64,000 bases of DNA. Source: Antedon mediterranea. Its lineage: Eukaryota; Echinodermata; Crinoidea; Comatulida; Antedonidae. Shown here one piece after another: positions 22,441 through 54,395 of this stretch. The stretch spans positions 27,028,501 to 27,092,500 of the forward strand of contig NC_092672.1 of the NCBI RefSeq assembly GCF_964355755.1. Direction: 5' to 3'. Both the position numbers and the translations under genes were made by a program. Every line of letters starts with the position of its first letter. The first letter of the stretch is position 1. The notes below the pieces were generated by a model. It saw only the letters and a list, made by a program, of their open reading frames with translations. It was not told the DNA's origin and ran no database searches.

Positions 22441-22900
22441 ATAAATAGAACGGCAAAAGAAACTACTGTCAAGTTACGAACGTCTGACCCATAGAGAATT
22501 AACAAATCATCGAATAGTAGTGTAGTATTAGTAATATAAATTATGGAAAATCGTGATATTTAACAGCTAAATTAAATTATAAAATGTTTAAACAATTATT
22601 GTGAAGGTGAAATTATTAATTAGAAAAAACAAATAGGCATAAAACATATATTATATATGTCAAATATTGCATTTTAGATTACGGATTTAACTTGATGTAT
22701 AGTTTCTGAATGTGTAAATGCATTTGGGAGTCATACAGTTTGAATTATTAAATGTAAATTACATATTAATTGCAATTGAATGAAATTTAATTAAATATTA
22801 TGAATAATGTAGAAATACAATTTTAGAACTTGTTTTTTTCATTGTCTTTGCATGTCTGAACTACTCAATGATTTCGTTTTTAACTTTTGAATAAAATAAA
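22441..22900 (+). other. Gene B exon 4 (3' UTR) with poly(A) signal
   Basis: The acceptor is a T-rich tract ending CAG at 22440; the exon begins ATAAATAGAACGGCAAA as in CD and EF. AATAAA at 22890-22895 is the likely cleavage signal. Confidence 0.6.
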
Positions 22901-23133
22901 ATAATTAATTAATGAATGAGCAACACACAAACAAACGAAGGGACAAAACATTGAAAAAATATTGAAGAAATGATGAATAAATATACGAACGAATAATGTA
23001 TAAACAAATGAAAGGCGATGTTATTAATAGGTGTACAATACATTAGTTTTATTTTAACGAAAGCGGCCATTTTAACGAACACTATACTTCCTGATATAAA
23101 TCAATGTTTAGCGCCAGTAGTTGGTCCCGATCA

Positions 23134-30149: not shown

Positions 30150-31338
30150 GATCATATTCCCCTGTCAGGAACAAACAATCCCCACATTTGACCAATCAGA
30201 GCATAGATTTAGTTTCAGTGTAAATTATTAATTACCAGTACCCGGCGTAATAGTAGTGAGGCCAATGTGAGTTTTTCCATCATAGGGAGAATTTTCTGGT
30301 AATAGTTGGCAACCATGTGGAATATATCCCTTATGGGATGACAAAAAAGATAGAGGTGGATGCCACTCTCAAATTTCAGGTCAAATGTCATTTTCAAGGT
30401 TATAATGTCAAATATGGTACAATAGAGGTTTAAGCTGTTTTCAACAACATATAAGCCAATTAAATGAAATGTAACCATTATTGGATCATTATTGACATTG
30501 CGGAAGATTATCAATTCATCAATTTTTCAACTTACAAGTTTAAAGGTCATTTTCAAAGTCAAATAAAGCACAAACCTGTTAAATAATCGGTATTAATAAT
30601 TGAAATAAATATAATTTTCATGAGGATAGGATGGGGCTGATGGTTATAGTGTGGTGTCAAAAAGATCAGAATTTTACTCGGAAGATTTTAAACTTAAAAG
30701 CATTTGAATCACTCCTGAAAGTGGGAGATGAGTCCTAGAGTATAAAAATAACCGATTGGAATGTCTTAAATTACATTAAAACCGTCACAGAGGGGTTGTG
30801 AGTTGAGAGTAATGGGCCCATTTTAAGTGTTTCCTTTAGCCTAAGTGAATACAATGGAAATACAGTACTTAAATATTTATTGAGTAAAGTGAAATACTTA
30901 ATATTTAAGGGAAATAATCACTTTAGTGTGATTGGTAAAATACGGCCACTGAGTCTAGTTAGATGTAGCATTTCAAGACCCTCCAAAGACTATGTCTGTT
31001 ATACAGTTTTCTTCTCAAGAGTACCATATATTTGGCAATTAAACTTTTCTATGTACTGTAAGTGCAAATTCTTAATCTTATTCAATTCCATTTATAAGGA
31101 GTGGATGCGTTACGAACGTTTTCCATTTTATTTATTTGTTTACACCTTATTTATAGAGGGTGACCCTAAACAGCGTATGCTGACAATCAATTACCCTCTT
31201 GATGAGTGACAATGGCTGTGTGTATACTAGTACACCGGGGTAAACCCCTACTCGTCTCGAAAGATGTACTTGGCTCACTGGACCTACGGTTTAGGCCTAG
31301 TCCTTATCCGAGAAGACTCATTCTACCACCAGAGCCAT

Positions 31339-31432
31339 GGAGTGAGTGAGACTCGAACCCCTGCCGATTTTAATATGGCAATGTATTACGGTTCCACTGT
31401 CTTAACCACTTGGCCACCCACTCACTCACTCC
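31339..31432 (-). mobile_element. tRNA-Ser/Leu-like SINE head, unit 1
   Basis: The minus strand has a perfect end pairing GGAGTGAGTGAG/CTCACTCACTCC, an A box TGGCCAAGTGGTTAAGAC, an anticodon-like stem CAGTG/CATTG with an oversized loop, a long variable arm, and B box GGTTCGAGTC. The oversized loop argues against a working tRNA. Confidence 0.5.
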
Positions 31433-32104
31433 AGTATGAAAAGCTGAAGCTGATTATTCTTACTAGGGTTTCAGTCACTTTGCTATTCACTATACCATGC
31501 ATCGTCCATACTTTAGTAGGATATACGGTATATTGGAGTTACAAAGTGCATAGGCCTATAATTACCATATATAGCATATCATCAACTTTTAGGTATAAGT
31601 ACAATCTTTGTCATTGACATAGAAGAATATCATTTCTCCTTGTTGGTCTTGCATTCTGAAAATCCAGGAGACGAGGAGAAGGTTGTGCACAAGTTTCCAT
31701 TTGGCGGAAAAATGTTATCCATCATTTGTCCCAGTTCCACATACACCCACAAAAATTGAATATTAATAGGATTTTCTTTCAAGCAAAAATTAAAAACTTC
31801 GTGTTTGACGAGTTCCACAAAATGCAGTAATTCTGTACCTAAAGTATCTGCCTCCTCTTGAAATACATTACTGAAAATCTATAACTAATTAGGATTCATG
31901 ACAATACAAATAGATTATATTTTCATGTCATAATTGTTGCGAGACAGATTTTTTTTAAATATAAAAAGCAAATAAGTCGAGGCCTGTGTGTTCTTCAGTC
32001 AGCATTTCTTTCTAAAATCCTGGACACGCCACTGCTATGAATATTTACCAATAATATTATAATATTCACGGTGTTTTTTAGAGTGTTGCCCTTTAAATTG
32101 AAGG

Positions 32105-32112
32105 TATAAAAG
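32105..32112 (+). promoter_or_regulatory. TATA box of gene CD
   Basis: TATAAAAG lies 86 bp before the ATG, in the conserved flank shared with B and EF. No equivalent exists before the second-domain exons at 39168. Confidence 0.7.
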
Positions 32113-32190
32113 TTGTACCACTTATTACAAATGCCATTAAGTTTTGAAAACACGGTACTTTGATAAAGCAATCATTCAACTATAATCAAG

Positions 32191-35100
32191 ATGTTTATAT
32201 CAACTGTGATAGCATTTATCATCTACTCATTCATATTTTGTGAAGGACAAGGTAAAATATCAATTTTTCTACTTTTCATACATATACATGAGTGCTGTTG
32301 TTCACTAAGGTATTGGAATATTATGCCTAGTCAAATTTTATTATGTTTTTAATATATTACAGGTTGTCTTGTATTTGTAGGAAAAGAAAACACTTTATCC
32401 CTCTATTTCTTCTGCACCGCCCTCTTCAGCAACACTGTGATACTACATGTTCTCCGAGGAAACCCTTATTTGCACAATTTACTATATAGGCTAGTGTTAT
32501 TATGATGTTTAAAATAAGATTATTTTATATCGTGAATGTTGTGAATTTATAATAAACTTATGTTTGTATAACTTAAAATATTACATTACATCTTTCATTA
32601 GTATCCACATAATATTGTTTCAGTATCGCAATTCAATAGTAAAATATTTGATCAGGGTATTAACTTAGTAGGCCTAACATAATCATGTAAATTTTACATT
32701 TATTCATTCAGTTACAAATCCACATTAAAATGCATCACCATCATCATTATACTATACGTTTAAGTAATTTCAAGTAAGCTCATACATTTTTTTTGTAATC
32801 TAAAATTCTTTCATATTTACTTTGATTTTTATATCTCTAAAATACAAGAGAAAATAATATTTAGCTTTTCCTTTACATTAGTGGCTTCCACATGTAATAT
32901 GCCGATTGGTCTCGCTGACAACGTCCGAAGCACAAAGTTTCCTGATTCAGCATTTTCAGCCAGCTCTTATGAAAGTTATGGCCAAAGACCATCAAGAGGT
33001 AGATTGAATGCAAAGCATGAGAACGATAATAATATGGGAGCGTGGATGACCAACAATGATCCATGGATTCAAATATATTTGAAAGATGTCATTGAAATCG
33101 GAGGCATAATTACACAAGGACACAATGGTTATCCTTACTGGGTTACGAAGTTTCAAGTTTCATACTCAAAGGATGGAAAAGCGTTTTTCTACGTCAAACA
33201 AGCCGGTTCTAACAATGAGGTGTCTTTACTCTACTTTATTTTTGATACGTGTCTATAATAACAATAATAAAGCCAAATAGATTGATAATCATAACATGAT
33301 TGACATTTACCGAGAAATTATTACTTTATTTTAATTGACAATGCGTTAATTTTATTTAAACAAATATACTGTATTATAAGTACGTTCTAATACAAACAAT
33401 ACAGACAACAGTCTCATATGAAACACATCATACATGTTTGACAGCTCATACAATTCATACACACTTAAAATATATAAAGACAACTTGAGAATATATTATA
33501 AAACAAAACATTATCTGTACAATTTGTAGGGTTCTTCACAATAGTTTAGATCCTTATTTTGCTGGTTTTTAGTTCAGACTCCAATTATGCCAGTCATTAG
33601 CATCATGTGATAGCTGTATCTTCCGAGTATAACTAATTTAATTTTAATTTGTAAGCTGTGTTTTTTTAAAAATATTTACATTTAAATAGGTCTTTACTGG
33701 GAACACTGATTCAGACACATACATACGCAACGACTTTAAGTCGATTTTCGCCCGTTACATACGGATTCATCCAAAGGACTGGAATGGAGCTACTAGTCTC
33801 AGGTTTGAACTTCTTTCCTGTGGTAAGTATATACTCGTTTTACTTCTACATCATGCCTGCGCATCAATTGCTAATGGCCCAGTGACAAAATAGCAGCCGT
33901 CTAAAACAAGATGGTCTTTTTACTATAAAAGGAGTAAATCCAAAAACATCGACAAACCGAGCCAATACTATCCTAATCATGTTGCTCGTTTTTTTCTGGT
34001 GACGTTGAAACTAACCCAGGACCCAAGAAAGTTAAATGTCTACTTTCAAAACGCGCGTAGCATTAAAAATAAAATGCATTTTAGACCACCAAAACCAACG
34101 TTGAGCACCTTGAGCCTCTTCATCAATCTCTTAATATAAGCTAATACTTGAATCCACAAAGGCTGAATTGTGCTAGTCGGTGATTTTAACCTGCCCGATT
34201 TTCAGTGGAATGACGACGGTAGCCATACTTCATAGCCATAAATCAAACTCTGATAGTATGCTTGTTTTTCTGATCAAATCATTTTAACCTTTCCTAATAT
34301 AATTTTTCCTATACTCGTTTGAATAACATTTTAGATCTTGTACTTTATAGTAATTTTAAATACAATTGTAATGTTTCCATTGATGACTCGATCGTCTTTG
34401 AGTCTGATCATGAGTCCCTTCATATTAAGTTTGATATTGATTCCTGTTCTCGAGATAGTCATACTTTTAGGACTATTTAAAATTGTTCTAAAACTAATTG
34501 GGCTGTTATGTGCAATCTTTTTGATATATGTACCTTGGGATATCTTCAAGAGCTTTAATGATGTCTGTCTGGATGTGTTTTATAGTTTTGTCTCATCTAC
34601 TATTAAAGATATGGTTCCCACTATTACCCCCAACTTTCGCAAAGCTTTAAATATTAAAGAAATAGGCGTAAATTATATAGACAATATCGTACTGAATTTC
34701 ATAACAATGAATTTATCTATGCTCGTAGACATTTTAAACAACTTTGTAGAGTTTAAGTATCAAGAACCCTACATTTAAGAGTAACTATAAACAAACAGCC
34801 CCAACCATACTCAAGTATGGAGCTACTGAAGCTTGCAAACCTAATGATATTGATGAAGCCAATTTTGTATAATTTATTTGCTAGCTCTAATGATGTTAAG
34901 ATTACTATACTACCTTTCCTGATTTTGCTGAATATCCCCCTGATACTCTTTCTAATTTTTCTGTCAATTCTAATGAGGTTGCAAATACTTCTCAAGAATT
35001 AATCCCCATAAAGCGTTTGGCTGCGATAGGTTATGGAGAGTCGGTATTTTAAAGTAATTAAGTGCTAGGTCATAACAAATATACTCAGGCCCTAGAATGA

Positions 35101-38100
35101 TTCTAAGGGATCTTTTTTGGAGTTTCTCTATTTGGAGCGATTGTTTAAGGGTAATAGCGCCATGTCAATTCTTGTATTTTCCTTACAATTGGGAACGTTG
35201 TAACGTTTGCTCCCAATTTAAAAAGCAGATTTTTGTTATAATATTAGGAATTTTCGCCCTATGCCGTTGGTTTCTCTGTAAGATTTCCGAAAAAATTGTT
35301 AATACTGTAAATGGTTTCAATAATTTTTTTCTAACGTTGGACCTAACCTAGCCAAAAAAATAACAAGTCAATTTCCAAGTCATGATAGTCCCAATGATTA
35401 CATTAAGAAACGTATTCCAAATTCTATTTTTTAGAGGCCACTTCCAAAGAAGTATTAATTACAGAAGTGAACTTATATTTAAGTCTAAAAATTCCAGCGG
35501 ACATGGTGATGTACCTATGTCAATAGTTAAACCCATTATATATGAAATCAGTGAGCCATTGACACATATTTATAATCGTTAACTTGAGACTGGCATTTTC
35601 CAAGATACCCTTAAGATTGCAAAAAGTGTTCCCATCTACAAAGCTGGGATAAAAGTAGTTTCTCAAATTATCGACCGATCCCCTTGTTGCCCAAATTTTC
35701 TAAAATTTTAGAAAATTATTTAACACCCGTCTGTTGAAATTTATAGACAAATTTGATATTTTATATTCAGGACAATTTGGTTTTAGAAAAAATATGTCCA
35801 CCACTAGCCATGCATTGCTTCACTTTTCCGAGTTTATGCTTAAAGAGATGGACAGGTCTAACTATACAATTGGAATTTTTATTGACTTAAAAAAGGCGTT
35901 TGATACCATCGACCACAATATCCTTATAAAAAAAACTTGAAGCTTATGGTATTCGTGGAATTGCCAATAAATGGATGCAAAATTATCTTTCTAACAGAAA
36001 ACAATTTTTAACAATACATTTTGATACCACCTCAGAATTAACAGACATTTTATGTGGCATTCCACAGGGATCAATTTTGGGGCCCACTTTATTCTTTTTA
36101 TATATTAATGACATTTGTAATGCTTCTTCCCTAATGAAATACACACTTTATTCTGATGATGATACAAATATACTTTTTTTCTGGTAAGAACCTGCAATTT
36201 ATCTGTAATATTATTAATGATGAGCTAAAAAAATTAATACTTGGTTTAAGGTAAATAAATTGACGTTGAACCATAGTAAGACAAAGTATATTATTTTCAG
36301 CTGCAAAAACAATTATGAACCGACACATTTAGTTATTAGTGGTGTTGCAATTGAACGGGTAAATAAAATAAAGTTTTTATGAGTTGATTATTGATGGAAA
36401 TTTAAATTGGAAGTGTCATATTGATTATATTCATTCCAAAATTTATTATTAATTTATTATTATTTATTATTTAAGTATTGGAATTATTTATAAAGTGAAA
36501 CATTTACTAAATACACCAGCTTTATTTAAATTATATAATTCATTAGTTTTGCCTTATTTTACATATTGTTGTGAAGTCTGGGGTAATACCTTTAGAACTA
36601 GTTTAAATTGTTTATACATAAATTATTACAAAAAAGGCACACAGACTTGTTATGAAAGCCAATGTTTTATTTTTTTTAAACTCTTGATCTTTATAATTTA
36701 ATAAAACTATATACAGTTTCTCTAATGCATAAAGCTTTTCATAACTTACTCCCAGCGATTGTTCAAAATAATTTCATTTTATGCTCAGTTGTCCACGATA
36801 AATATACTCGACAAAAACACCAATTCTACCCACAATTTAAAAGAACCACTCAAAAATCATAAACTATCTTTTTTTTTTGTTAAGATAAAAAAAAAAGATT
36901 GTTTGCATTTTCTTAAAAGTTACATTTTGCTTGCCTATGACCTTTGTGCCATTTTTAGTCGCGTGGAAGCGACTCTATAGTTCACTATGTCGGTCGGTCG
37001 GTCTGTCTGTCGGTCTGTCTGTCGGTCTGTCTGTCTGTCGGTCCGGTATCACTATGCGTTTTATCGCTTTCTGACCTTATCTTGATATCAGTTTAATCTA
37101 GCTAGGTCAATTTTTCACAGTATATTCCTTATGGCCAGGAATCAATGTGGTTATGTTTTCACGGTGCGCAATAAAAAATTACGCGGTCTACGCACGATTT
37201 AACGAAATCACGTTTGTAATCATATCTTCACAACCATGAATCACAATTAAATAAAATTTGGTACTCATAAATTTCAGGGCATAAATCATCATATGGCAAT
37301 ACAATTACGTGCGTAGCGCATGTAACGCATGCGTACGCGCGCTTAACATTTTCAAAATTTATTTTCGATGAAATAAGAGTACATTTCAGGCAATTTTAAG
37401 CGTTTAAAAAATTGCCATGAGTGCGCATATTTTTGCGCGCGCACTGCGCGTTAAATGTTATTGCGCACTCTTTTTGCCCGATTTCTGTTTTCTTCACTTA
37501 CTTTCAACTCGAAATTACGTTATACGAGCACGTCGAAAGTGACAGGCTACGCACGTGTAAATTTAAAAAAAATAAATGTTTTTAAACATTTCAACATTTT
37601 TAAACATGTTCAGTAATTTCGGTCAGTATAGTTCACTATGTCGGTCGGTCGGTCTCTCTGTCTGTCTGTCGGTCTGTCTGTCGGTCTGTCTGTTGGTCTG
37701 TCTGTCGGTCCGGTATCACTATGCATTGTAGCACGCGACTTAATGGCTGTTGGCCTTGTTCATATTACTATTTATATATAGATACTATTTTGTAACAGGG
37801 GGTTTCTACTTATAAGCTGTGCTTCAGAGATTCCCCCTTTCCATTCATTCGTTTTGTAATGAATATTTATGTATGTTTCTATTTTTTGTTGTGAATGGAA
37901 ATAAAGATACAAACAAACACACAATCTCTTCTCGTATATATCACCTATTCTCTTTTCTGTCCAACATGACTTTGTCTCTGGCAGATCGTGTCAGACTAAC
38001 CTTGCTATTCTATGTAATCAGTTGCTTATCAGTCTTTTGGGTTTAGAGAAACAATCTCAGTGTGATATTGTCAACACTGACTATTCAAAAGCATTCGATA

Positions 38101-40969
38101 AAGTATGACACGATATTATAAGTATCAGATACTTACTTTATCACTTTTTTTTATTCAGTTCACAACCAACAGCGATGAAATCTAAACATAATACTATATT
38201 CATATTTGCAACAATAAGATAAACTTAGATTGGAACATAACAGAGATTAAAAAAAATTTACCCTTAAATACAATTTAAAAAATCAATATCCAAACAATTA
38301 ACAAGCACACTATTAAATGTGTAACCGCTGAAAAATACTTCGTTTTGTGCATTCAACAACACGACCACAAGGAACGTGAAGCAAACACTTGCCTGCGAGT
38401 ACGAGTTTGTATATTTAACTTAAACAAAGTAACAAGAGGACAATCATAAACAGAATTGAAAGAGTTGTTTAAAAATATCCTATCAAAAACAACTCTGCGA
38501 TTTTCAAGACAAATAAGAGAAACATTATAATTATGACAATATCAAAAAATACTCATTTTTATTACAACAATAACCTGTCTATTGATAGGTTTAACTTTCA
38601 AAAAGATCTGAAACTTAACTTTATTAAACATGTTGTTGCTAAGGGTAATAGAATGATGGGTATGCTTTGGCGTCACTGTAAATTGATAGTGTTACTAAAC
38701 TTTTATTATTTCTTTTGTCCGATCGATTTTTTATTTTTCATCATTTCAATTTCGATCTCTCAATCAAATCGTATCGAACGTGTTCAATACAAATTTATTT
38801 ATTTCATTAACTAAAACAATTCTGGTCTTCTAATCATCTTCCTCTGCTTCATAATCGGAGAAGTTTTTTCGATTTGATTTTTTTCTTCAAATGCTTTAAA
38901 CTCCTTTTTAAATTATAATTGTTGTCATTTTCTCTCTTAAAATTGATGTTCTAACTCTCACACTGACCTTTTCCCCTTGTCCGTTGTCGAACGTAACTAA
39001 AAATGATTTTAATCAAAGATTATCCAGGCTTTACAATTTAATTTCTATTAAAGGTAAGACTATCGATATTTTTTTGACACTTTAGACCTAAAGTTCTTAA
39101 AGCAATAAAAAAAATACATATAGTGAAATACAAGAGAAAACAATATTTAGGTTTTTGTTTTCATTAGTGGCTTCCACATGTAACATGCCGATTGGTCTCG
39201 CTGATGACGTCCGAGACACAAGGTTTCCTGACTCAGCATTTTCAGCCAGCTCTTATGAAGGGGAGGGCCAAAGACCATCAAGAGGTCGACTGAATGCAAT
39301 GCATGAAAGCTCTTCTAAAATGGGAGCATGGATGGCCAATGATCCTTGGATTCAAGTAGATTTGAAAGATGTCATTGACATCGGAGGCATAATTACACAA
39401 GGACAAAATGGTTATCCTTACTGGGTTACGAAGTTTCATGTTTCATTCTCAAAGGATGGAAAGACGTTTATCTACCTCAGACAAGCCGGTTCTAACAAAA
39501 AGGTTTCTTTACTCTACTTACTTGAACTTCATTTTTGATACGTGTCTATAATTACAATAATAAAGCCATATAGAATGGTAATACATAACATGATTGACAT
39601 TTACCAAGAAATTATTACCTAGACAATGGGTTAATTTATTTAAACAGATATACTATATTAAATGTACGTTCTAACACAAAAAATACAAAATACCACAGAA
39701 AACTGTATTGGTCTCATATAAAAAATAAGAAGTTAATTCGATGTTGGCAGCTCATAGAATTCATACACGCTTCTTAAAATATAATTAAAAGACAAATTGA
39801 GAATAAAACAAAACATTATCTGAACTATTTGTAGGGTTTTTCACAATGTTTTAGATCCTTTTTTTAATATGTGAGTTCCTACTCTGTTGACATCACTTTT
39901 GTTGAGTTTAGACTCTTTATATTAACCTCTTTGGTGGGAATATGCCAGTCATCAGCATCGTGTGGTAAATGTTTCATCCGAGGATTACTACTTTGATTTT
40001 ATTTTATTAACCTACGGATTTTTAAAATGTTTACATTTAAATAGGTGTTTACTGGGAACAATGATTCAGACACACAACGCACCAACTACTTTGAAAATAA
40101 GATTACCGCTCGTTATATACGGATTCATCCAAAGGAATGGTATGGAGCTACTAGTCTTAGGTTTGAACTTCTTTCCTGTAACTGGTAAGTAGGCCTATAC
40201 TCGTTTTCTTCTCTGTATGATACTGACATCATGCCTGTGTCAAAATAATCAAGTGGTTAAAAAAGCAATCTTAGGCCTACGTGGAAAGGTCTCTGGTAAC
40301 TAACCTAACGGACCAATCATGTTACTATAAACAGGTCTAGTAATTAGTGTCGATATTATTGGGTGGAAAAGACGTTTTCTCACAAATATATTAGAACCCT
40401 TAACTTTACCCTTTCAGAAAGTAAAATCACTGAGTAAAGTCAAGATAGTGTAGTATCTTCTACACTACCTTTGGTGATGAGCTTGATATTTCGGCTCATG
40501 TTAAAAGAATACAGATTTTATTTGTTATTTTTGAAATTATCAATGAACCGATTTTCTTGACATTCAATACTATTGACAATATGCATGTTCTGTAAGTACC
40601 GTAGCCTATGTTTCCACCAAAACATTCAGGATGATAACTTGAAAATTGCCATCGTCCAAACAAACAAACAAACAAATAAACCAAAACACACAAATAAAGT
40701 AGTACGTTTTATACTTAGCAAAAGTACTATTTTGCCAGGTAATAAAGTAAATTCTAAACAGGAAAGAATGAAATTCTAAGCATGAATGAATGTAGTGTAT
40801 ACTGATTCTAAGATTGTTTCTTCGAAGGAAAAGTGATAAAATCAATTTATTTGCTCTTCCACCTGAATATTATCACTCTTGCCTGATGTAAATATTTATT
40901 TGACAAGTAATGCAGCTTATCCTCAATGAGACATTATGAATTATTTCTTTCGTAATCTATTTTTTCAGA
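32191..40969 (+). CDS. Gene CD: secreted protein with two tandem F5/8C domains
   Basis: Proposed 335-aa secreted protein. Exons: 32191-32251 (signal MFISTVIAFIIYSFIFCEGQ, phase 1), 32882-33219 and 33690-33822 (domain 1), 39168-39502 and 40045-40184 (domain 2), and 40969 (last base of stop). Domain 1 ends RFELLSC with phase 1 exit and donor G|GTAAGT. Domain 2 enters in phase 1 (VASTCNMPIGL), so the join is in frame. The stop TG|A is formed across the final junction. Both domains have PSRGRLN, GAWM, ITQG, ARYIRIHP and terminal Cys. Domain 1 has WIQIYL where domain 2 has the usual WIQVDL. The 5.3-kb central intron is filled with LINE remnants. The alternative is two separate genes, but the first then lacks a last exon and the second lacks a start. 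Confidence 0.65.
33995..34024 (+). other. 2A-like ribosome-skipping peptide motif in a LINE
   Basis: In frame codons read SGDVETNPGP, matching the D-x-E-x-N-P-G-P consensus that makes ribosomes skip a peptide bond. The paralogous element keeps it at 47963-47992. CR1-like LINEs of sea urchins and other animals are known to carry such motifs near the ORF2 start. Here the frame breaks soon afterwards, so the copy is inactive. Confidence 0.75.
36957..37760. mobile_element. Unknown terminal-inverted-repeat element, unit-1 specific
   Basis: This 804-bp segment is absent at the matching point of unit 2 (50628/50629). The ends AGTCGCGTG (36957-36965) and CACGCGACT (37732-37740) are perfect 9-bp inverted repeats; 20 bp more follow the right end. 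Two direct subterminal blocks (about 36975-37055 and 37627-37724) carry (CGGTCTGT)n-type repeats and end GGTCCGGTATCACTATGC. The core is rich in GCGC motifs. There is no coding frame, so it is probably a non-autonomous DNA transposon of unidentified class. Confidence 0.65.
37960..39110 (+). pseudogene. Decayed LINE of the 13.7-kb family, unit 1
   Basis: Pieces match the 13.7-kb LINE in order: FVSGRSCQTNLAIL-like residues in a broken frame and QCDIVNTDYSKAFDKV near 37965-38108; VVAKGNRMMGMLWRHCK near 38630-38685; RIERVQYKF near 38769; and a C-terminal FRPKVLKAIKK-like end near 39080-39110. Stops and deletions are frequent. It ends close to the acceptor of the second-domain exon. Confidence 0.6.
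39168..40184 (+). CDS. Second discoidin-domain exons of gene CD
   Basis: Exon 39168-39502 (acceptor TTTTCATTAG, phase 1 in, phase 0 out, donor GTTTCT) and exon 40045-40184 (donor G|GTAAGT). The sequence includes ADDVRDTRFPDSAFSASSYE, DPWIQVDLKDV, GGIITQGQNG, ARYIRIHPKEW and SLRFELLSCN. Listed separately because its membership of CD is inferred from splice phase, not from a transcript. Confidence 0.85.
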
Positions 40970-41425
40970 TAAATAGAACGGCAAAACAAACTACTGTCAA
41001 GGTACGAACGTCTGACCCACAGTGAATTAACTAATCATCAAATAGTAGAGTAGTATTAGTACTATGAATTATGGAAAATCGTGATATTTAACAGCTAAAT
41101 TAAATTATAAAATGTTTAAACAATTATTGTGACGGTGAAATTATTAATTAGAAAAAAACAAATAGGCATAAAACATAAATTATATATGTCAAATATTGCA
41201 TTTTAAATCACGGATTTAACTTGATGTATTGTTTCTGAATGTGTAAATGCATTTGGGAGTCATACAGTTTGAATTATGAAATATAAATTACATATTAATT
41301 GTATTGAATGAAATTTAATTAAATATTATGAATAATGTAGAAATACAATTTTAGAACTTGTTTTTTTGTTGTCTTTGTATGTCTCCACTACTCAATCATT
41401 TCGTTTTTAACCTTGGAATAAAATA
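40969..41425 (+). other. Gene CD last exon (3' UTR) with poly(A) signal
   Basis: The acceptor TTTTTCAG ends at 40968; base 40969 completes TGA. AATAAA is at 41417-41422. The exon is homologous to 22441-22900 and 53811-54390. Confidence 0.6.
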
Positions 41426-41588
41426 AAATAAAAACACACAAACAAACGAAGGAACAAAACAATTGAAAGGCGATGTTATTAATAGGTGTACAATACATTA
41501 GTTTTATATTAACGAAAGCGGCCATTTTAACGAACACTATACATCCTGATATAAATCAATGTTTAGCGCCAGTAGTTGGTCCCGATCA

Positions 41589-44110
41589 ACGAGCCACCCT
41601 TTAGAGAAAATCCAGCTATAACACAGAATAATACCCCCCTGATTACAATATTAGAAGTTATAGATAGCATTAAACGATTTCTGGACCTCTATTGTGTAAC
41701 AATTTACCCCCCTCAATTTCCTGTGCTGCTAACCGCTATTCATTCAATAATAAAATTAAAAATTACCTTTTGTCTCATTACTGATCCATCTGTTTGATAT
41801 GTTTATCATTCATTTGTAATCATATTCGCTATATGCCATGCAGCTGTACTTTTTTCTGTTCTTTTTTTTAAACTTTTTATTCCAACTTTTATCTACTGGT
41901 TTTATTAATATTTTTTATTTCTTTATTGTTTAATTAATTTATTTTCTTTATTTATATTTTTTTCTTCTCTTAATTTAAATATGTAGGCCCTCAAAGCAAT
42001 CCCGTCACAAGATTATAATCTTTTTGGGATTTGCCGTCGTCCATTTTCTTGTTTTATCACTTGCCATTTTGTTTTTGTTACTTTTGTCTTTTGGACGTGA
42101 ATAAATGTTCTTTGAATTGAACTGAAAAAAAATCATCTTAAATTAAATAAATCACCAGAAATTTATAGTTTAACACCTAATATTTTTAAGACCCTACCTA
42201 CTAATATTTTACAAATAATTAATAACATTTTTAATTTTATTATTAAATCTAGTAATTATCCAGACAATTGGACAACTGGAATTTTAGTTCCCTTCTATAA
42301 AGGGAATGACCCAAATAACGTAAACAATTACAGACCCATTACTTTATTACCTATTTTTAACAAAACATTTACATGGATAGAAAAACGAATCAAAGAATGG
42401 GTAGAACAAAATAATATTATACCAGAAGAACAAGTAGGGTTCAGAAAGGGATATAGCACAACCGACACTTTAGTTAAAAAGGCCTTAAATAAGAAAAGGT
42501 GTAAACTTTATTGTGTATTTGTTGATTTCAAGCAAGCGTTTGATAGTATTAGTAGAATTATTTTATTTACTAAAATTAAACAAATGGGTCTTCCTTTATA
42601 CATTTATAATATTATAAGAGCAATATATAAGGATGTAAATATTAAAATTAAAATACAACATGGACTAACAAATAGTTTTAAAAGCACCACAAGACTTAAA
42701 CTAGGCTCTCTTCTATCGCCCATATTATTTATTATGTTTCTTTATGACTTAAAACAATTTTTATTAGAAAATGATTTACATTTCTGTTCAATAGGTCATC
42801 TCGCACTTAATATGTGCAGATGACCTTATGCGCATTTCATACTAAAAAATCGGAATTCCAAAACAAATAAATCAATTACAGAAATATTTCACAGAAAATA
42901 GCCTCACTATCAATAATGCAAAATCAAAAATAATGGTTTTCAGAAAAGGAGGAAAATTAAGTAACGATGATAAATTTTCGCTAAATGGAAATGATATAGA
43001 AATTGTAAATAATTTTAAATATTTAGGTTTCACCCTTAACAGCCAAGGTAAATGGAACACCATGGAAAAAGTCACAACAGACAAGACAAAAAGAGCCATG
43101 TTTAATTCAAGAAGGAAATTATCTGATTTAGGTTACAATTCTGTTAAAATTAAGAAAAAGCTATTTGAGACAAAGATCCTCCCTATTATCTTATATGGAT
43201 GCGAAATATGGGGGCATATAGAAGGAAAAGAAATTGAAAATATCCATCTTAAGCATTGTAAATATACATTAAATGTCCAGCAGTCGTGTCCCAACGAGGA
43301 GGCCAGAAGTGAATTAGGCCATATCCAATTAAAGTAGTACAGACATATTAGAATGATAAGTTACTGGATTAAAATATTAATGATAGAAGACACAAGACTA
43401 CCAAAAATATGCCTTCTTCAACAAAAGTCCTGGGCCCAGAAGGGAAGCGACTGCTGGGAACTCTAAATGTTAAATATATTCTTAACTATTACGGATTTAA
43501 TTATATTTTTTATTTAAATGATATAAATAATAATTTCTTACAAAATTTGAGCCAGATGGTATACGATACAGCTTTACAGAACGGAAGAGAAAGTCTCCAA
43601 CAAAACCCACGTTTGCGATTTTATAATTATTTTAAAGCTGATTATGTTACAGAAGACTATTTACATGATTTAAATTTTAAGTTTAGGACACTTTTATCAA
43701 GATTTTGTTTATCAACACAAAATTTATTTATTGAGAAGGGAAGACATCTTAAATAAATTAGAGAAAATAGAATCTGTTTATTTTGTAATACTGGTGAAAT
43801 TGAAGACGAATTGCATTTTTTATTTAGTTGTTCTTTATACAACAACCTGAGACAGAAATAAATTAAAATCAAAAATCAAAATATATATACCTATTTGAAT
43901 TATGTATTTATAAAATAAAAGAGAAATAAGACTGTTTGCTATATACATTGAAAAAAGTTTTAACTTAAGGAATGTCCAAATCAAGAGAAATAATTTTATT
44001 TTAATGTTTTAGAAAATGCATAAGTTTAAGAAACTATCGCATAAATATTGATTAATGTTATTATGTAATATGGACCGAAGGCCAAAATTACGAATAAAGA
44101 AAGAAAAAAA
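41589..44110 (+). mobile_element. LINE family 2, fuller copy
   Basis: Flanked by GATCA at 41584-41588 and 44111-44115. The empty site is preserved at 54613-54617 (CCGATCACATTCC). The coding region is interrupted: NYRPITLLP, EEQVGFRKGYSTTDTLVKKA, YCVFVDFKQAFDSI, LGSLLSPILFIMFLYDL, an ADD box near 42815-42835, NNFKYLGFTLNSQGKW, KILPIILYGCEIWG, IENIHLKHCKYTLNVQ and a C-terminal CCHC knuckle. It is 5'-truncated, frameshifted, and split by a 458-bp insertion at 41676-42133. Confidence 0.8.
41676..42133 (+). mobile_element. Non-coding LINE-tail-like insertion inside LINE family 2
   Basis: Absent from the sister copy, where TTAAAC joins ATCTTAAATT directly. It is T-rich, contains GGGATTTGCCGTCGTCC and AATAAATGTTCTTTGAATTG, and ends in a short A-run. 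This looks like a LINE 3' UTR inserted without its coding region. Confidence 0.6.
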
Positions 44111-45299
44111 GATCATATTCCCCTGTCAGCAACAAACAATCCCCACATTTGACCAATCAGAGCATAGATTTAGTTTCAGTCTAAATTATTAATTACCAGT
44201 ACCCGGCGTAATAGTAGGGAGGCCAATGTGAGCTTTTCCATCATAGGGAGAATTTTCTGGTAATAGTTGGCAACCATGTGGAATATATCCCTTATGGGAT
44301 GACAAAAAAGATAGAGGTGGATGCCACTCTCAAATTTCAGGTCAAATGTCATTTTCAAGGTTATAATGTCAAATATGGTACAATAGGGGTTTAAGCTGTT
44401 TTCAACAACATATAAGCCAATTAAAAGAAATGTAACCATTATTGGATCATTATTGACATTGCGGAAGATTATCAATTCATCAATTTTTCAACTTACAAGT
44501 TTAAAGGTCATTTTCAAGGTCAAATAAAGCACAAACCTGTTAAATAATCGGTATTAATAATTGAAATAAATATAATTTTCATGAGGATAGCATGGGGCTG
44601 ATGGTTATAGTGTGGTGTCAAAAAGATCAGAATTGTACTCGGAAGATTTTAAACTTAAAAGCATTTGAATCACTCCTGGAAGTGGGAGATGAGTCCTAGA
44701 GTATAAAAATAACCGATTGGAATGTCTTAAATTACATTAAAACCGTCACAGAGGGGTTGTGAGTTGAGAGTAATGGGCCCATTTTAAGTGTTTCCTTTAG
44801 CCTAAGTGAATACAAGGGAAATACAGTACTTAAATATTTATTGAGTAAAGTGAAATACTTAATATTTAAGGGAAATAATCACTTTAGTGTGATTGGTAAA
44901 ATACGGCCACTGAGTCTAGTTAGATGTAGCATTTCAAGACCCTCCAAAGACTATGTCTGTTATACAGTTTTCTTCTCAAGAGTACCATATATTTGGCAAT
45001 TAAACTTTTCTATGTACTGTAAGTGCAAATTCTTAATCTTATTCAATTCCATTTATAAGGAGTGGATGCGTTACGGACGTTTTCCATTTTATTTATTTGT
45101 TTACACCTTATTTATAGAGGGTGACCCTAAATAGCGTATGCTGACAATCGATTACCCTCTTGATGAGTGACAATGGCTGTGTGTATACTAGTACACCGGG
45201 GTAAACCCCTACTCGTCTCGAAAGATGTACTTGGCTCACTGGACCTACGGTTTAGGCCTAGTCCTTATCCGAGAAGACTCATTCTACCACCAGAGCCAT

Positions 45300-45393
45300 G
45301 GAGTGAGTGAGACTCGAACCCCTGCCGATTTTAATATGGCAATGTATTACGGTTCCACTGTCTTAACCACTTGGCCACCCACTCACTCACTCC
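45300..45393 (-). mobile_element. tRNA-Ser/Leu-like SINE head, unit 2
   Basis: A duplicate of 31339-31432 with the same length and pairing. Confidence 0.5.
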
Positions 45394-46070
45394 AGTATGA
45401 AAAGGCACGGAAGCTGATTATTCTTACTAGGGTTTCAGTCACTTTGCTATTCACTATACCATGCATCGTCTATACTTTAGTAGGATATACGGTATATTGG
45501 AGTTACAAAGTGCATAGGCCTATAATTACCATATATAGCATATCATCAACTTTTAGGTATAAGCACAATCTTTGTCATTGACATAGAAGAATATCATTAC
45601 TCCTTGTTGGTCTTGCATTCTGAAAATCCAGGAGACGAGGAGAAGGTTGTGCACAAGTCTCCATTTTTGGCGGAAAAATGTTATCCATCGTTTGTCGCAG
45701 TTCCACATACACCCACAAAAATTGAATATTAATAGGATTTTCTTTCAAGCAAAAATTACAAACTTCGTGTTTGACGAGTTCCACAAAATGCAGTAATGTT
45801 GTACCTAAAGTATATGCCTCCTCTTGAAATACATTACTGAAAATCTATAACTAATTGGGATTCATGACAATACAAATAGATTATATTTTCATGTCATAAT
45901 TGTTGCGAGACAGATTTTTTTTAAATATAAAAAGCAAATAAGTCGAGGCCTGTGTGTTCTTCAGTCAGCATTTATTTCTAAAATCCTGGACACGCCACTG
46001 CTATGAATATTTACCAATAATATTATAATATTCACGGTGTTTTTTAGAGTGTTGCTCTTTAAATTGAAGG

Positions 46071-46078
46071 TATAAAAG
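46071..46078 (+). promoter_or_regulatory. TATA box of gene EF
   Basis: TATAAAAG lies 86 bp before the ATG, as in CD. Confidence 0.7.
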
Positions 46079-46156
46079 TTGTACCACTTATTACAAATGC
46101 CATTAAGTTTTGAAAACACGGTACTTTGATAAAGCAATCATTCAACTATAATCAAG

Positions 46157-49100
46157 ATGTTTATATCAACTGTGATAGCATTTATCATCTACTCATTCAT
46201 ATTTTGTGAAGGACAAGGTAAAATATCAATTTTTCTACTTTTCATACATATACATGAGTGCTGTTGTTCACTAAGGTATTGGAATATTATGCCTAGTCAA
46301 ATTCCATTCCATATTATGTTTTTAATATATTACAGGTTGTCTTGTATTTGTAGGAAAAGAAAACACTTTATCCCTCTATTTCTTCTGCACCGCCCTCTTC
46401 AACAACACTGTGATACTACATGTTCTCCGAGGAAACCCTTATTTGCACAATGTACTATATAGGCTAGTGTTATTATGATGTTTAAAATAAGATTATTTTA
46501 TATCGTGAATGTTGTGCATTTATAATAAACTTATGTTTGTATAACTTAAAATATTACAGTACATCTTTCATTAGTATCCACATAATATTGTTTCAGTATC
46601 GCAATTCAATAGTTAAATATTTGATCAGGGTGGTAACTTAGTAGGCCTAACATAATCATGTAAATTTTACATTTATTCATTCAGTTACAAATCCACATTA
46701 AAATGCATCACAATCATCATTATACTATACGTTTAAGTAATTTCAAGTAAGCTCATACATTTTTTTTTGTAATCTAAAATTCTTTCATTTTTACTGTGAT
46801 TTTTATATCTCTAAAATACAAGAGAAAATAATATTTAGCTTTTTGTTTACATTAGTGGCTTCCACATGTAGTAACATGCCGATTGGTCTCGCTGCTGACG
46901 TCCAAAGCACAAAGTTTCCTGATTCAGCATTTTCAGCCAGCTCTTATGAAAGTTATGGCCAAAGACCATCAAGAGGTAGATTGAATGCAAAGCATGAGGA
47001 CGATAATAATATGGGAGCGTGGATGACCAACAATGATCCGTGGATTCAAGTATATTTGAAAGATGTCATTGAAATCGGAGGCATAATTACACAAGGACAA
47101 AATGGTGCTAGTAACTGGGTTACGAAGTTTCAAGTTTCATACTCAAAGGATGGAAAAGTGTTTTTCTACGTCAAACAAGCCGGTTCTAACAATGAGGTGT
47201 CTTTACTCTACTTTATTTTTGATACGTTTCTATAATTACAATAATAAAGCCATATAGATTGGTAATCATAACATGATTGACATTTACCGAGAAATTATTA
47301 CTTTATTTTAATTGACAATGCGTTAATTTTATTTAAACATTTTAAACGTTCTAATACAAAAAATACAGACAACAGTCTCATATGGAAAACATCATACATG
47401 TTTGACAGCTCATACAATTCATACACACTTAAAATATATAAAGACAAATTGAGAATATATTATAAAACAAAACAGTATCTGTACAATTTGTAGGGTTCTT
47501 CACAATAATTTAGATCCTTATTTTGCTGGTTTTTAGTTCTGACTCCAATTATTCCAGTCATTAGCATCGTGTGATAGCTGTCTCTTCCGAATATAACTAA
47601 TTTAATTTTAATTTGTAAGCTGTGTTTTTTAAAAAAATATTTACATTTAAATAGGTCTTTACTGGGAACACTGATTCAGACACAGACAAACGCAACGACT
47701 TTAAGTCGATTTTCGCCCGTTACATACGGATTCATCCAAAGGACTGGAATGGAGCTACTAGTCTCAGGTTTGAACTTCTTTCCTGTGGTAAGTATATACT
47801 CGTTTTACTTCTACATCATGCTTGCGCATCAATTGCTAATGGCCCAGTAACAAAATAGCAGCCGTCTAAAACAGAAAAAAAAAGGAGTAAATCCAAAAAC
47901 ATCGACAAACCAAGCCAGTACTATCCTAATCATGTTGCTTGTTTACGAGAACTCGTTTTTTTTCTGGTGACGTTGAAACTAACCCAGGACCAAAGGAAGT
48001 TAAATGTCTACTTTTAAAACGCGCGTAGCATTAAAAATAAAATGCATTTTAGACCACCAAAAACAAACTTCTTCATCAATCTCTTAATATAAGCTAATAC
48101 TTGAATCCACAAAGCCTGAATTGTGCTAGTCGGTGATTTTCAGTGGAATGACGACGGTAGCCATACTTATAAATCCAACTCTGCTAGTATGTTTGTTTTC
48201 TGACCAAATTCTTAATCCTTTTAACCTTTCCTAATATAATTTTGTAATACTAGTATTTTAGATCTTTTACTTTGTAATAATAATTTTAAATACAATTGTA
48301 ATGTTTCCATTGATGACTCGATCGTCTTTGAGTCTGATCATGAGTCCCTTCATATTAAGTTTGATATTGATTCCTGTTCTCGAGATAGTCATACTTTTAG
48401 GACTATTTAAAATTGTTCTAAAACTAATTGGGCTGTTATGTGCAATCTTTTTGATATATGTACCTTGGGATATCCTCAAGAGCTTTAATGATGTCTGTCT
48501 GGATGTGTTTTATAATTTTGTCTCATCTACTATTAAAGATATGGTTCCCACTATTACCCCCAACGGTTCGATAACAACTTTCGCAAAGCTTTAAATATTA
48601 AAGAAAATAGGCGTAAATTATATAGACAATATCGTACTGAATTTCATAACAATGAATTTATCTATGCTCGTAGACATTTTAAACAACTTTGTAGAGTTTA
48701 AGTATCAAGAACCCTACATTTAAGAGTAACTATAAACAAACAGCCCCAACCATACTCAAGTATGGAGCTACTGAAGCTTGCAAACCTAATGATATTGATG
48801 AAGCCAATTTTGTATAATTTATTTGCTAGCTCTAATGATGTTAAGATTACTATACTACCTTTCCTGATTTTGCTGAATATCCCCTTGATACTCTTTCTAA
48901 TTTTTCTGTCAATTCTATTGAGGTTGTTGCAAATACTTCTCAAGAATTAATCCCCATAAAGCGTTTGGCTGCGATAGGTTATGGAGAGTCGGTATTTTAA
49001 AGTAATTAAGTGCTAGGTCATAACAAATATACTCAGGCCCTAGAATGATTCTAAGGGCTCTTTTTTGGAGTTTCTCTATTTGGAGCGATTGTTTAAGGGT

Positions 49101-52100
49101 AATAGCGCCATGCCAATTCTTGTATTTTCTTTACAATTGGGAACGTTGTAACGTTTGCTCCCAATTTAAAAAGCAGATTTTTGTTATAATATTTAGAATT
49201 TTCGCCCTATGCCGTTGCTTTCTCTTTAAGATTTCCGAAAAAATTGTTAATACTGTAAATGGTTTCAATAATTTTTTTGCTATCATTGGACCTAACCTAG
49301 CCAAAAAAATAACAAGTCAATTTCCAAGTCGTGATAGTCCCAATGATTATATTAAAAAACATATTCCAAATTCTATTTTTTAGAGGCCACTTCCAAAGAA
49401 GAATTAATTACAGAAGTGAACTTATTTAAGTCTAAAAATTTCAGCGGATGATGTACCTATGTATGTCAATAGTTAAACCCATTATATATGAAATCAGTGA
49501 GCCATTGACACATATTTATAATCGTTAACTTGAGACTGGTATTTTCCAAGACACCCTTAAGATTGCAAAAATTGTTCCCATCTACAAAGCTTGGGATAAA
49601 AGTAGTTTCTCAAATTATCGACCGATCTCCTTGTTGCCCAAATTTTCTAAAATTTTAGAAAATTATTTAACACCCGTCTGTTGAAATTTATAGACAAATT
49701 TGATATTTTATATTCAGGACAATTTGGTTTTAGGAAAAATATGTCCACTAGCCATGCATTGCTTCACTTTTCCAAGTTCATGCTTAAAGAGATGGACAGG
49801 TCTAACTATACAATCGGAATTTTTATTGACTTAAAAAAGGCGTTTGATACCATCGACGACAATATCCTTATAAAAAAAACTTGAACTTTGAAGCTTATGG
49901 TATTCGTGGAATTGCCAATAAATGGATGCAAAATTATCTTTCTAACAGAAAACAATTTGTAACAATACATTGTGATACCACCTCAGAATTAACAGACATT
50001 TTATGTGGCATTCCACAGGGATCAATTTTGGAGCCCACTTTATTCCTTTCATTTCTTTTATTACATTTGTAATGCTTCTTCCCTAATAGAATACACGCTT
50101 TATGCTGATGATACAAATATACTTTTTTCTGGTAAGAACCTGCAATTTATCTGTAATATTATTAATGATGAGCTAAAAAAAATAATACTTTGTTTAAGGT
50201 AAATAAACTGTAAAATTACATATTGTTGTGAAGTCTGGGGTTATACCTTTAGAACTAATTTAAATTTTTTATACATATTACAAAAAAGGCACTAAGACTT
50301 GTTATGAAAGTCCCATACACCAGTCCAAGTAAACCAATTTTCTATTTTTTTTAAACTCTTGATCTTTATAATTTAATAAAACTATATACAGTTTCTCTAA
50401 TGCATAAAGCTTTTCATAACTTACTCGCAGCGATTGTACAAAATAATTTCATTTTATGCTCAGTTGTCCACGATAAATATACTCGACAAAAACATCAATT
50501 CTACCCACAATTTAAAAGAACCACTCAAAAATCATAAACTATCTTTTTTTTTGTTAAGATAAAAAAAAAGATTGTTTGCATTTTCTTAAAAGTTACATTT
50601 TCCTTCCCTATGACCTTGTGCCATTTTTCATATTACTATTTATATATATATATATACTATTTTGTAACAGGGGGTTTCTACTTATAAGCTGTGCTTCAGA
50701 GATTCCTCCTTTCCATTCATTCGTTTTGTAATGAATATTTATGTATGTTTATGTTTTTTGTTGTGAATGGAAATAAAGACACAAACAAACAAACAATCTC
50801 TTCTCGTATATATCACCTATTCTCTTTGCTGTCCAACATGACTTTGTCTCTGGCAGATCGTGTCAGACTGACCTTGCTATTCTATGTAATCAGTTGCTTA
50901 TCAGTCTTTTGGGTTTAGAGAAACAATCTCAGAAGCATTCGATAAAGTATGACACGATATTATAAGTATCAAATTCTTACTTTATCACTTTTTTTTATTC
51001 AGTTCAAAACCAACAGCGATGAAATCTAAACATAATAATATATTCATATTTGAAACAATAAGATAAACTTAGATTGGAACATTACAGAGATTAAAAAAAA
51101 ATTTACCCATAAATACAATTAAACTATAAATCAATATCCAAACAATTAACAAGCACACTATTAAATGTGTATCGGCTGAAAAATACCTCGTTTTGTGCAT
51201 TCAACAACACGACCACAAGGAATTAACGTGAAGCAAACACTTGCCTGCGAGTACGAGTTTGTATATTTAACTTAAACAAAGTAACAAGAGGACAATCATA
51301 AACAGAATTGAAAGAGTTGTTTAAAAATATCCTATCAAAAACAACTCTGCGATTTTCAAGACAAATAAGAGAAACATTATAATTATGACAATAAAAAAAA
51401 AATACTCATTTTTATTACAACAATAACCTGTCTATTGAAAGGTTTAACTTTCAAAAAGATCTGAAAATTAACTTTATTAAACATGTTGTTGCTAAGGGTA
51501 ATAGAATGATGGGTATGCTTTGGCGTCACTGTAAATTGATAGTGTTACTAAACTTTTATTATTTCTTTTGTCCGATCGATTTTTTATTTTTCATCATTTC
51601 AATTTCGATCTCTCAATCAAATCGTATCAAACGTGTTCAATACAAATTTATTTATTTCATTAACTAAAACAATTCTGGTCTTCTAATCATCTTCCTCTGC
51701 TTCATAATCGGAGAAGTTTTTTCGATTTGATTTTTTTCTTCAAATGCTTTAAACTCCTTTTTAAATTATAATTGTTGTCATTTTCTCTCTTAAAATTGAT
51801 GTTCTAACTCTCACACTGACCTTTTCCCCTTGTCCGTTGTCGAACGTAACTAAAAATGATTTTAATCAAAGATTATCCAGGCTTTACAATTTAATTTCTA
51901 TTAAAGGTAAGACTATCGATATTTTTTTTGACACTTTGTCAATTTTTAGACCTAAAGTTCTTAAAGCAATAAAAAAAATACATATAGTGAAATACAAGAG
52001 AAAACAATATTTAGCTTTTTGTTTTCATTAGTGGCTTCCACATGTAACATGCCGATTGGTCTCGCTGATGACGTCCGAGACACAAGGTTTCCTGACTCAG

Positions 52101-53811
52101 CATTTTCAGCCAGTTCTTATGAAGGGGAGGGCCAAAGACCATCAAGAGGTCGACTGAATTCAATGCATGAAAGCTCTTCTAAAATGGGAGCATGGATGGC
52201 CAATGATCCTTGGATTCAAGTAGATTTGAAAGGTGTCTTTGACATCGGAGGCATAATTACACAAGGACAAAATGGTTATCCTTACTGGGTTACGAAGTTT
52301 CATGTTTCATTCTCAAAGGATGGAAAGGCGTTTATCTACCTCAGACAAGCCGGTTCTAACAATGAGGTTTCTTTACTCTACTTACTTGAAGAACTTCATT
52401 TTTTTTGATACGTGTCTATAATTACAATAATAAAGCCATATAGAATGGTAATGCATAACATGATTGACATTTACGAAGAAATTATTACCTAGACAATGGG
52501 TTAATTTATTTAAACAGACTGTATTAAATGTACGTTCTAATACAAAAAATACAGAAATACCACAGAAAACTGTATTGGTCTCATATAAAAAATAAGAAGT
52601 TAATTCGATGTTGGCAGCTCATAGAATTCATACACGCTTAAAATATAATCAAAAGACAAATTGAGAATAAAGGAAAACATTATCTGAATTATTTGTAGGG
52701 TTCTTCACAATGTTTTAAATCCTTTTTTTAATATGTGAGTTCCTACTCTATTGACATCACTTTTGTTGAGTTTAGACTCTTTATTTTAACCTCTTTGGTT
52801 GGAATATGCCAGTCATCAGCATCAGGATTACTACTTTGATTTTAATTTATAAACCTACGGATTTTTAAAATGTTTACATTTAAATAGGTGTTTACTGGGA
52901 ACAATGATTCAGACACACCACGCACCAACTACTTTGGATATAAGATTGCCGCTCGTTATATACGGATTCATCCAAAGGAATGGCATGGAGCTACTAGTCT
53001 TAGGTTTGAACTTCTTTCCTGTGACTGGTAAGTAGGCCTATACTCGTGTACTTCTCTGTATGATACTGACATCATGCCTGTGTCAAACTAATCAAGTGGC
53101 AAAAAAAAGCAATCTTAGGCCTACGTGGAAAGGACTCTGGTAACTGACCTAACGGACCAATCATGTTACCTTAAAAAGGTCTAGTAATTAGTGTCGATAT
53201 TATTATTGTTTTCTCACAAATATATTAGAACCCATAACTTTAAACATTACCCTTTTAGAAAGTAAAATCACTGAGTAAAGTCAAGATAGTGTAGTATCTT
53301 CTACACTACCTTTGGTGATGAGCTTGATATTTCGGTTCATTTTAAAAGAATACAGATTTTATTTTTTATTTCTGAAATTATCAATGAACTTGAAATTCAA
53401 TACTATTGAAAATAGGCATCATCTGTAAGTACTGTATACCAATTTACACCAAAACATTCAGGACGATAACTTTAAAATTGTGAACGCCATCGTGCAAAAA
53501 AAAAACCAAATAAAACAAACACATCAAGTACGTACTATTGCCAAGTACATTATATTTTGCCAAGTAATAAAGTAAATTCTAAGCAGGAAAGAGTGAAATT
53601 CTAAGAAGGAAAGAGTGAAATTTTAAGTAGGGAAGAGTGTAGTGTATACTGATTCTAAGAATTTTCTGAAAAAGTGACAAAATTAATTTATTTGCTCTTC
53701 TACCTGAATATACTCACTCTTGCCTGATGTAAATATTTACTTACAAGTAATGCAGCTTATCCGCAATGAGACATTATGAATTATTTCTTTCGTAATCTTT
53801 TTTTTTTCAGA
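46157..53811 (+). CDS. Gene EF: secreted protein with two tandem F5/8C domains
   Basis: Proposed 336-aa paralogue of CD. Exons: 46157-46217 (signal, phase 1), 46856-47196 and 47655-47787 (domain 1), 52032-52366 and 52888-53027 (domain 2), and 53811 (last base of the TG|A stop). Domain 1 has one more residue than in CD (TCSNMPIGL) and again shows WIQVYL in place of WIQVDL. Domain 2 keeps WIQVDL but has KGVFDIGG where CD has KDVIDIGG, and ends SCD rather than SCN. All frames are open and all junctions GT-AG. The central intron (4.2 kb) holds the same LINE remnants minus the 804-bp element. As for CD, the two-domain reading rests on splice phases. Confidence 0.65.
47935..50790 (+). mobile_element. 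CR1-like LINE remnant, unit 2
   Basis: Paralogue of 33985-37920. The 2A-like motif is at 47963-47992. The GDFN motif is damaged here by a 15-bp deletion near 48141. The reverse transcriptase keeps SGQFGFRKNMSTSHALLHF, LKKAFDTI, CGIPQGSILEP and YADDTNILFSGKN. Frameshifts and deletions are frequent. Confidence 0.7.
50830..51980 (+). pseudogene. Decayed LINE of the 13.7-kb family, unit 2
   Basis: Paralogue of 37960-39110: the GRSCQT-like region, a KAFDKV segment with a further deletion, GNRMMGMLWRHCK near 51500-51537, and NDFNQRLSRLYNLI near the end. Confidence 0.6.
52032..53027 (+). CDS. Second discoidin-domain exons of gene EF
   Basis: Exon 52032-52366 and exon 52888-53027, homologous to 39168-40184 with the same phases. 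Motifs: PSRGRLNSMHESSSKMGAWM, DPWIQVDLKG, ITQGQNGYPYWVTKF, AARYIRIHPKEWHG and SLRFELLSCD. Confidence 0.85.
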
Positions 53812-54395
53812 TAAATAGAACGGCAAAAGAAACTACTGTCAAGTTATGAACGTCTGACCTATAGAGAATTAACAAAATATCATCGAATAGTAGTGTAGTA
53901 TTAGTAATATAAATTATGGAAAATCGTGATATTTAACAGCTAAATTAAATTATAAAATGTTTAAACAATTATTGTGACGGTGAAATTTTTAATTAGAGAA
54001 AACAAATAGGCCTAAAACATAATTATATTATAAAATGTCAAATGTTGCATTTTAAATTACGGATTTAATTAGATGTATAGCAAATTTGGAATTCATACAG
54101 TTTGAATTATGAAATATAAATTAAATAAATTGTATTGAATGAAACTTAATTTTATATTATGAATATGTAGAAATACAATTTTAGAACTTGTTTTGTATTG
54201 TCTTTGCATGTCTCCACTACTCAACTTGTTTTGTATTCTCTTTGCATGTCTCCACTACTCAACTTGTTTTGTATTGTCTTTGCATGTCTCCACTACTCAA
54301 CTTGTTTTGTATTCTCTTTGCATGTCTCCACTACTCAACTTGTTTTGTATTGTCTTTGCAATGATTTCGTTTTTAGCTTTAAAAAATAAATAAAT
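53811..54395 (+). other. Gene EF last exon (3' UTR) with expanded minisatellite
   Basis: Starts ATAAATAGAACGGC after a long T tract and CAG; its first base completes TGA. AATAAA is at 54385-54390. Confidence 0.6.
54187..54360. repeat. 38-bp minisatellite in gene EF 3' UTR
   Basis: Four full copies plus a partial one start at 54187, 54225, 54263, 54301 and 54339. They alternate between TATTGTC and TATTCTC variants, so the true repeat is 76 bp. Genes B and CD have a single copy at the matching place (about 22829 and 41362). Confidence 0.9.

Follow-up and report, generated by a model that had tools for sequence, protein, structure and literature searches.

Predicted two-domain discoidin genes in a tandem duplication of the crinoid Antedon mediterranea

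The window, by which we mean the whole 64,000 nt stretch of DNA that was analysed (C3:27028501-27092500, in a genome of 354 Mb and 18 contigs), carries a cluster of genes for discoidin-type (F5/8C) domains. A query with the D domain has at least 77 matches in the genome at E <= 0.001. A COX1 family search of this genome returned no match. One tektin exon fits the 8snb chain best (176.1 bits, against 138.3 for the next chain); 8snb is from a sea urchin and the next chain is human, which may hint at an echinoderm or a near relative. On C3 the members are Z (outside the window), A, B, C, D, E and F, all on the plus strand, and the two nearest relatives lie on C5. A signal exon followed by exons 2 and 3 is present in Z, A, B, C, E and both C5 genes; D and F have exons 2 and 3 only. 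Apart from the combinations C plus D (CD) and E plus F (EF) considered here, all family members that were examined are single-domain genes.

Exon borders, phases and splice sites were recomputed for B to F (Table 1). The intron after exon 1 is in phase 1 and that after exon 2 in phase 0. An earlier note on this DNA had given coordinates that turned out to be base-exact, and the joins it proposed, 33822 to 39168 and 47787 to 52032, coincide with the recomputed borders. It had also described C and E as ending in phase 1 at a strong donor and without a stop, and D and F as beginning in phase 1 some 4-5 kb further on. Recomputation returned the same arrangement, with GTAAGT as the donor in both C and E. 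The stop of D and F is possibly completed by splicing (TG/A; 40184/40969 and 53027/53811), and the unspliced reading also stops immediately (TGG TAA).

Table 1. Features of the two-domain gene models and their surroundings (window coordinates)
Feature	Position	Strand	Remark
Gene B, single-domain relative	18389..22904	+	exon 1 18389-18449, exon 2 19094-19452, exon 3 21515-21651
Copy 1 of the ~14 kb tandem unit	29258..43214	+	copy 2 starts at 43215
C TATA box	32105..32112	+	86 bp upstream of ATG
C exon 1, predicted signal peptide MFISTVIAFIIYSFIFCEGQ	32191..32251	+	phase-1 donor
C exon 2, first part of F5/8C domain 1	32882..33219	+
C exon 3, end of domain 1, no stop	33690..33822	+	phase-1 donor TGTG/GTAAGT
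C-D central intron, broken LINE pieces	33823..39167	+	5345 nt
D exon 2, first part of F5/8C domain 2	39168..39502	+	phase-1 acceptor; no upstream signal exon
D exon 3, end of domain 2	40045..40184	+	TAA 40186-40188 if unspliced
Candidate D exon 4, mostly 3' UTR	40969..41430	+	spliced stop TG/A; end approximate
E TATA box	46071..46078	+	86 bp upstream of ATG
E exon 1, predicted signal peptide	46157..46217	+
E exon 2	46856..47196	+
E exon 3, no stop, ending as C exon 3	47655..47787	+	phase-1 donor
E-F central intron, copy of the C-D intron	47788..52031	+	4244 nt
F exon 2	52032..52366	+	no upstream signal exon
F exon 3	52888..53027	+	TAA 53029-53031 if unspliced
Candidate F exon 4, mostly 3' UTR	53811..54224	+	spliced stop TG/A; end approximate

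Joining C to D and E to F keeps the frame open to the end, as had been claimed, and yields 336 codons for CD and 337 for EF, with W as the last residue if the final donor is unused. Two F5_F8_type_C stretches were found by Pfam in each joined protein (E 1.1e-47 for CD and 5.3e-48 for EF), and the PF00754 profile scores of 161.8 bits (CD) and 162.8 bits (EF) are both above the curated cut-off of 28.2. Above cut-off the two models hold F5/8C domains only, PF22633 overlapping them. The first and last cysteines of an F5/8 type C domain form a terminal disulfide, and all four module translations (C, D, E and F) have a cysteine at the start (TC) and at the end (LLSC). At E <= 0.001 the joined CD protein matches 66 distinct PDB sequences. 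Its residues 4-315 align in one stretch to the C1C2 portion of the factor VIII light chain (3j2s_B, E 1.1e-37), and neuropilin-2 likewise aligns to it in one stretch (E about 1e-30).

The end of the domain distinguishes C and E from the rest of the family. GTAAGT stands at this position in all nine members examined (Z, A, B, C, D, E, F and the two C5 genes). In seven of them (Z, A, B, D, F and both C5 genes) the site is in phase 2, and the first in-frame stop falls in the interval from 5 nt upstream to 1 nt downstream of the donor. The donor of C and E is in phase 1, and the next stop, a TAG, comes 68 nt past it. The alignment has a 4-nt gap at the junction in C and E only, and the absence of these 4 nt both eliminates the stop and places the donor in phase 1. 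Judged from the aligned sequences, this 4-nt difference is the decisive change. All seven stop-bearing members retain the GT that follows the stop codon, which suggests that the donor is used in them as well. B, D and F have the acceptor TTTTTTCAG/ATAAATAG in common, and splicing to it would give D and F a completed stop, TG/A; in B the stop comes earlier. If C and E were left unspliced, 22 further residues would be followed by a stop, with AATAAA about 250 bp on (34068 and 48036), although this motif is common in such AT-rich DNA.

The central introns were searched for a separate beginning of D and F. A tblastn search with exon 1 (E<1) found no signal exon in either intron, while matching B, C and E, and weakly A, Z and the two C5 genes. 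A crude scan for an ATG, a hydrophobic stretch and a phase-1 donor gave no hits in the E-F intron and five in the C-D intron, the latter from two start codons that both run into a GTCGGTCTGTCTG repeat; four control stretches of 5.3 kb gave 0, 0, 2 and 3 hits. By these two methods an independent first exon for D or F was not found, in agreement with the earlier statement that the second domain sets have no signal exon. The same holds for their reported lack of a TATA box: TATAAAA occurs within the central introns (33924 and 35925; 49869) but not near exon 2 of D or F. In comparison, B, C and E have TATAAA 85-86 bp upstream of their ATG, and A has it 72 bp upstream. A point against the join is that in pyrimidine content the acceptor of D exon 2 is only tied fourth among the 97 YAG sites of its intron, and that of F exon 2 tied second among 73.

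The LINE reverse transcriptase ascribed to the central intron was also recovered, as RVT_1 in two of the four C-D intron pieces tested (E 6.7e-07 and 1.7e-06, at about 35704-36180); the other two pieces matched nothing. In both central introns the LINE matter opens with the frame piece FSGDVETNPGP (34001 and 47969), which holds a 2A-like motif of the form D(V/I)ExNPGP, read as DVETNPGP in the C-D intron. Such motifs are described from non-LTR elements, including sea urchin ones, in PMC4981915.

Gene B, a complete one-domain gene, has a head like that of C and E and a tail like that of D and F. Its head shares 304 14-mers with C and 304 with E, and none with the two central introns. For its tail the numbers are 536 with D, 393 with F, none with the C-D intron and one with the E-F intron. 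Relative to B the losses are therefore reciprocal, the 3' tail being absent only in C and E and the promoter and signal exon only in D and F. From these matches, C plus D and E plus F would each make up one complete gene frame with two modules. B (18125-22904) differs from C (31901-33236) by 5-10% in intron 1 and by 17-27% over exon 2, and from D (39874-41431) by about 2-9% after exon 3 and by 10-33% in intron 2 and exon 3. The domain module is thus an island of divergence between similar flanks, perhaps because the flanks have undergone gene conversion or because the module itself changes fast.

CD and EF are, by sequence comparison, copies of one duplication of about 14 kb. Positions 29258-36259 are 95.5% identical to 43215-50207, and 37750-41395 are 90.9% identical to 50616-54224. 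The left edge of copy 2 falls inside a LINE reading frame, and the window contains no N. This position of the unit edge (29258, 43215) would fit unequal crossing-over between LINEs. In a module tree of eight rows C groups with E (support 93/97) and D with F (80/89), values below the tool's star level; this pairing places the split of C from D before the 14 kb copy. The C5 gene C5a was left out of the tree on account of its exon 2, which is matched in two overlapping frames (C5:395927-396261); this copy may be broken. Since EF is a duplicate of CD, it is not independent evidence, and the two cases count as about one.

Purifying selection was not found by dN/dS, which is 1.23 for C-E (14 nonsynonymous and 3 synonymous changes) and 3.11 for D-F (11 and 1); changes are few, and Fisher p is below 0.2 in none of ten pairs. 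The C-E exons are not more conserved than noncoding DNA (17/471 versus 96/3543, p 0.30). The D-F exons are (13/475 versus 148/2828, p 0.02), but the 1.2 kb directly before exon 2 of D and F is as conserved as these exons (2.0%). No indel separates the D-F exons, where 3.3 to 5.6 would be expected (P 0.036 to 0.004), and the C-E exons differ by a single indel of 3 nt. A neutral simulation with an assumed indel-length spectrum left frames open in a fraction of 0.089 for C-E at mean rates, of 0.012 (mean) to 0.064 (low) for D-F, and in none of 3000 runs at the C-D divergence. These results indicate that the frames were maintained, chiefly during the older C-D divergence; they do not show strong constraint after the 14 kb copy. 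Selection lends weak support to CD and EF.

An array on C2 (23.97-24.00 Mb) offers a precedent within the family. In the 10 kb examined, out of about 29 kb with matches, exon 3 ends in phase 1 in all seven modules, with the donor 4 nt after the last cysteine, and six exon-2 starts fit phase 1 by eye. Of the six gaps between modules, five gave nothing in the crude exon-1 scan and the remaining one a single weak candidate. Like CD and EF, the array has an exon pair per domain and phase-1 module ends; unlike them, it has many modules and a CCAG, GCAG or AGAG linker before the donor. The one-domain genes Z, A, B and the two on C5 resemble CD and EF in the signal exon, exons 2 and 3, phases 1 and 0 and GTAAGT, but have a stop at the junction and one domain.

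These features make it probable that CD and EF are one two-domain gene each, as the earlier note had proposed, with CD extending from 32191 to about 41430 and EF from 46157 to about 54224. The proposal draws support from the open joined frame, the loss of the stop in C and E only, the loss of the head in D and F only, and the C2 precedent. A phase match alone has a chance of about 1 in 3; the stop loss, the reciprocal losses and the C2 array carry the reading beyond a lucky match. In the predicted gene, the transcript would start from the promoter and signal exon of C or E, whose exons 2 and 3 would encode F5/8C domain 1. The phase-1 donor would then be spliced across the LINE-filled intron of 4-5 kb to exon 2 of D or F, and exons 2 and 3 of the latter would supply domain 2 and the stop. 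The product would be a secreted protein of about 335 residues with a signal peptide and two F5/8C domains joined through LLSC-VAS-TC. Splicing, secretion, binding and the order of events in CD and EF are what we infer from sequence; binding of sugar or phospholipid may be expected from the family.

As to origin, a tandem pair of one-domain genes could have fused through the loss of 4 nt at the end of the first copy, which would have abolished its stop and shifted the phase of its last donor from 2 to 1. The tail of the first copy and the promoter and signal exon of the second would have been lost, and EF would have arisen by the later duplication of about 14 kb. Homology between the C and D blocks stops about 42 bp upstream of exon 2 and 25 bp downstream of exon 3, with LINE matter between. 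CD may have come about by fusion through deletion or by internal duplication of an exon pair. The class 1-1 rule, as presented in PMC8001218, holds that extracellular modules are flanked by phase-1 introns and arise from secreted proteins of one domain in which a phase-1 intron follows the signal peptide. The C and E modules are bounded by phase 1 on both sides; D and F begin in phase 1 and end at a stop or in phase 2. Chimeric structures from tandem duplication are treated in PMC5460883, and events of this kind, in which tandem duplicates of class 1-1 modules fuse, are already well known.

The same exons could be combined differently. Alternative splicing might yield one-domain proteins (exon 1-C2-C3-exon 4, ending SCDK-stop, and exon 1-D2-D3-exon 4), with the two-domain form minor or absent. 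Indeed, the C-only, D-only, E-only and F-only joins are all in frame and translate to complete one-domain proteins, the number of domains seen in the other family members examined. Low-level chimeric transcripts of tandem alpha-defensin genes, as described in PMC11840258, indicate that splicing between neighbouring copies can be rare noise. We nevertheless consider this explanation quite unlikely, given that strong adjacent exons would have to be skipped, that the domain-joining splice is the nearest-exon default, and that modules of the same family are joined in this manner in the C2 array. A broader version is that the 4-nt loss created a splice-selectable repertoire, in which one promoter per locus would give three in-frame secreted proteins (two-domain, first-domain-only and second-domain-only) in a fast-changing family. 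This we regard as unlikely, if somewhat less so.

Two further explanations question the copies themselves. D and F, and perhaps C and E, might be pseudogene remnants with a leftover frame, C and E lacking a 3' end and D and F a 5' end. The reciprocal truncation, the LINE-filled middle and dN/dS near or above 1 would suit such decay, but none of the four modules has a frame-breaking indel or stop, splice sites are intact in all of them, and the simulated neutral frames rarely (D-F) or never (C-D) stayed open. Decay is accordingly the least probable of the alternatives, and we give it very little credence. It is hardly more probable that EF is the other haplotype of CD, placed in the assembly as a false tandem copy, which would leave CD unaffected. 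Many stretches of the two copies differ by 1.5-4.4%, as haplotypes of marine animals can; but the uninterrupted window, the copy edge inside a LINE reading frame, the 10% difference between D and F in intron 3 and the differing flanks beyond the copy edges all argue for a genuine duplication.

The predicted two-domain proteins can be set beside known tandems. As in the C1-C2 pair of factor V and factor VIII (PF00754), the two F5/8C domains of CD would follow each other directly with a very short linker, and the joined frame gives one continuous alignment over both (3j2s_B). Factors V and VIII have A or B domains, however, whereas two F5/8C domains make up the whole mature protein in the CD and EF models. 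Lactadherin (MFG-E8) is a secreted protein with a tandem F5/8C architecture, and its single C domains match the CD query (2l9l_A, E 7.3e-21); the CD and EF models differ in having no EGF domains. Because Pfam found neither A nor EGF domains in the two models, we do not file them as orthologues of factor V/VIII or lactadherin. A literature search by listings returned no report of this locus, which is no proof of absence.

If the models are correct, CD and EF would represent a young and readable origin of a two-domain extracellular protein, in which the fused gene and its later copy are found next to relatives with one domain. A small change at the stop/donor junction would separate the one-domain from the two-domain state. 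In practical terms, the loci also caution that gene finders may break up genes of this sort where an intron is filled with LINE sequence.

Elsewhere in the window, two tRNA-like matches exceed the Rfam threshold, at 25871-25942 on the minus strand (52.6 bits) and at 26032-26103 on the plus strand (57.9 bits). An open frame at 26920-27228 on the minus strand has a GIY-YIG match (E 4e-05) and is possibly part of a Penelope-like element.
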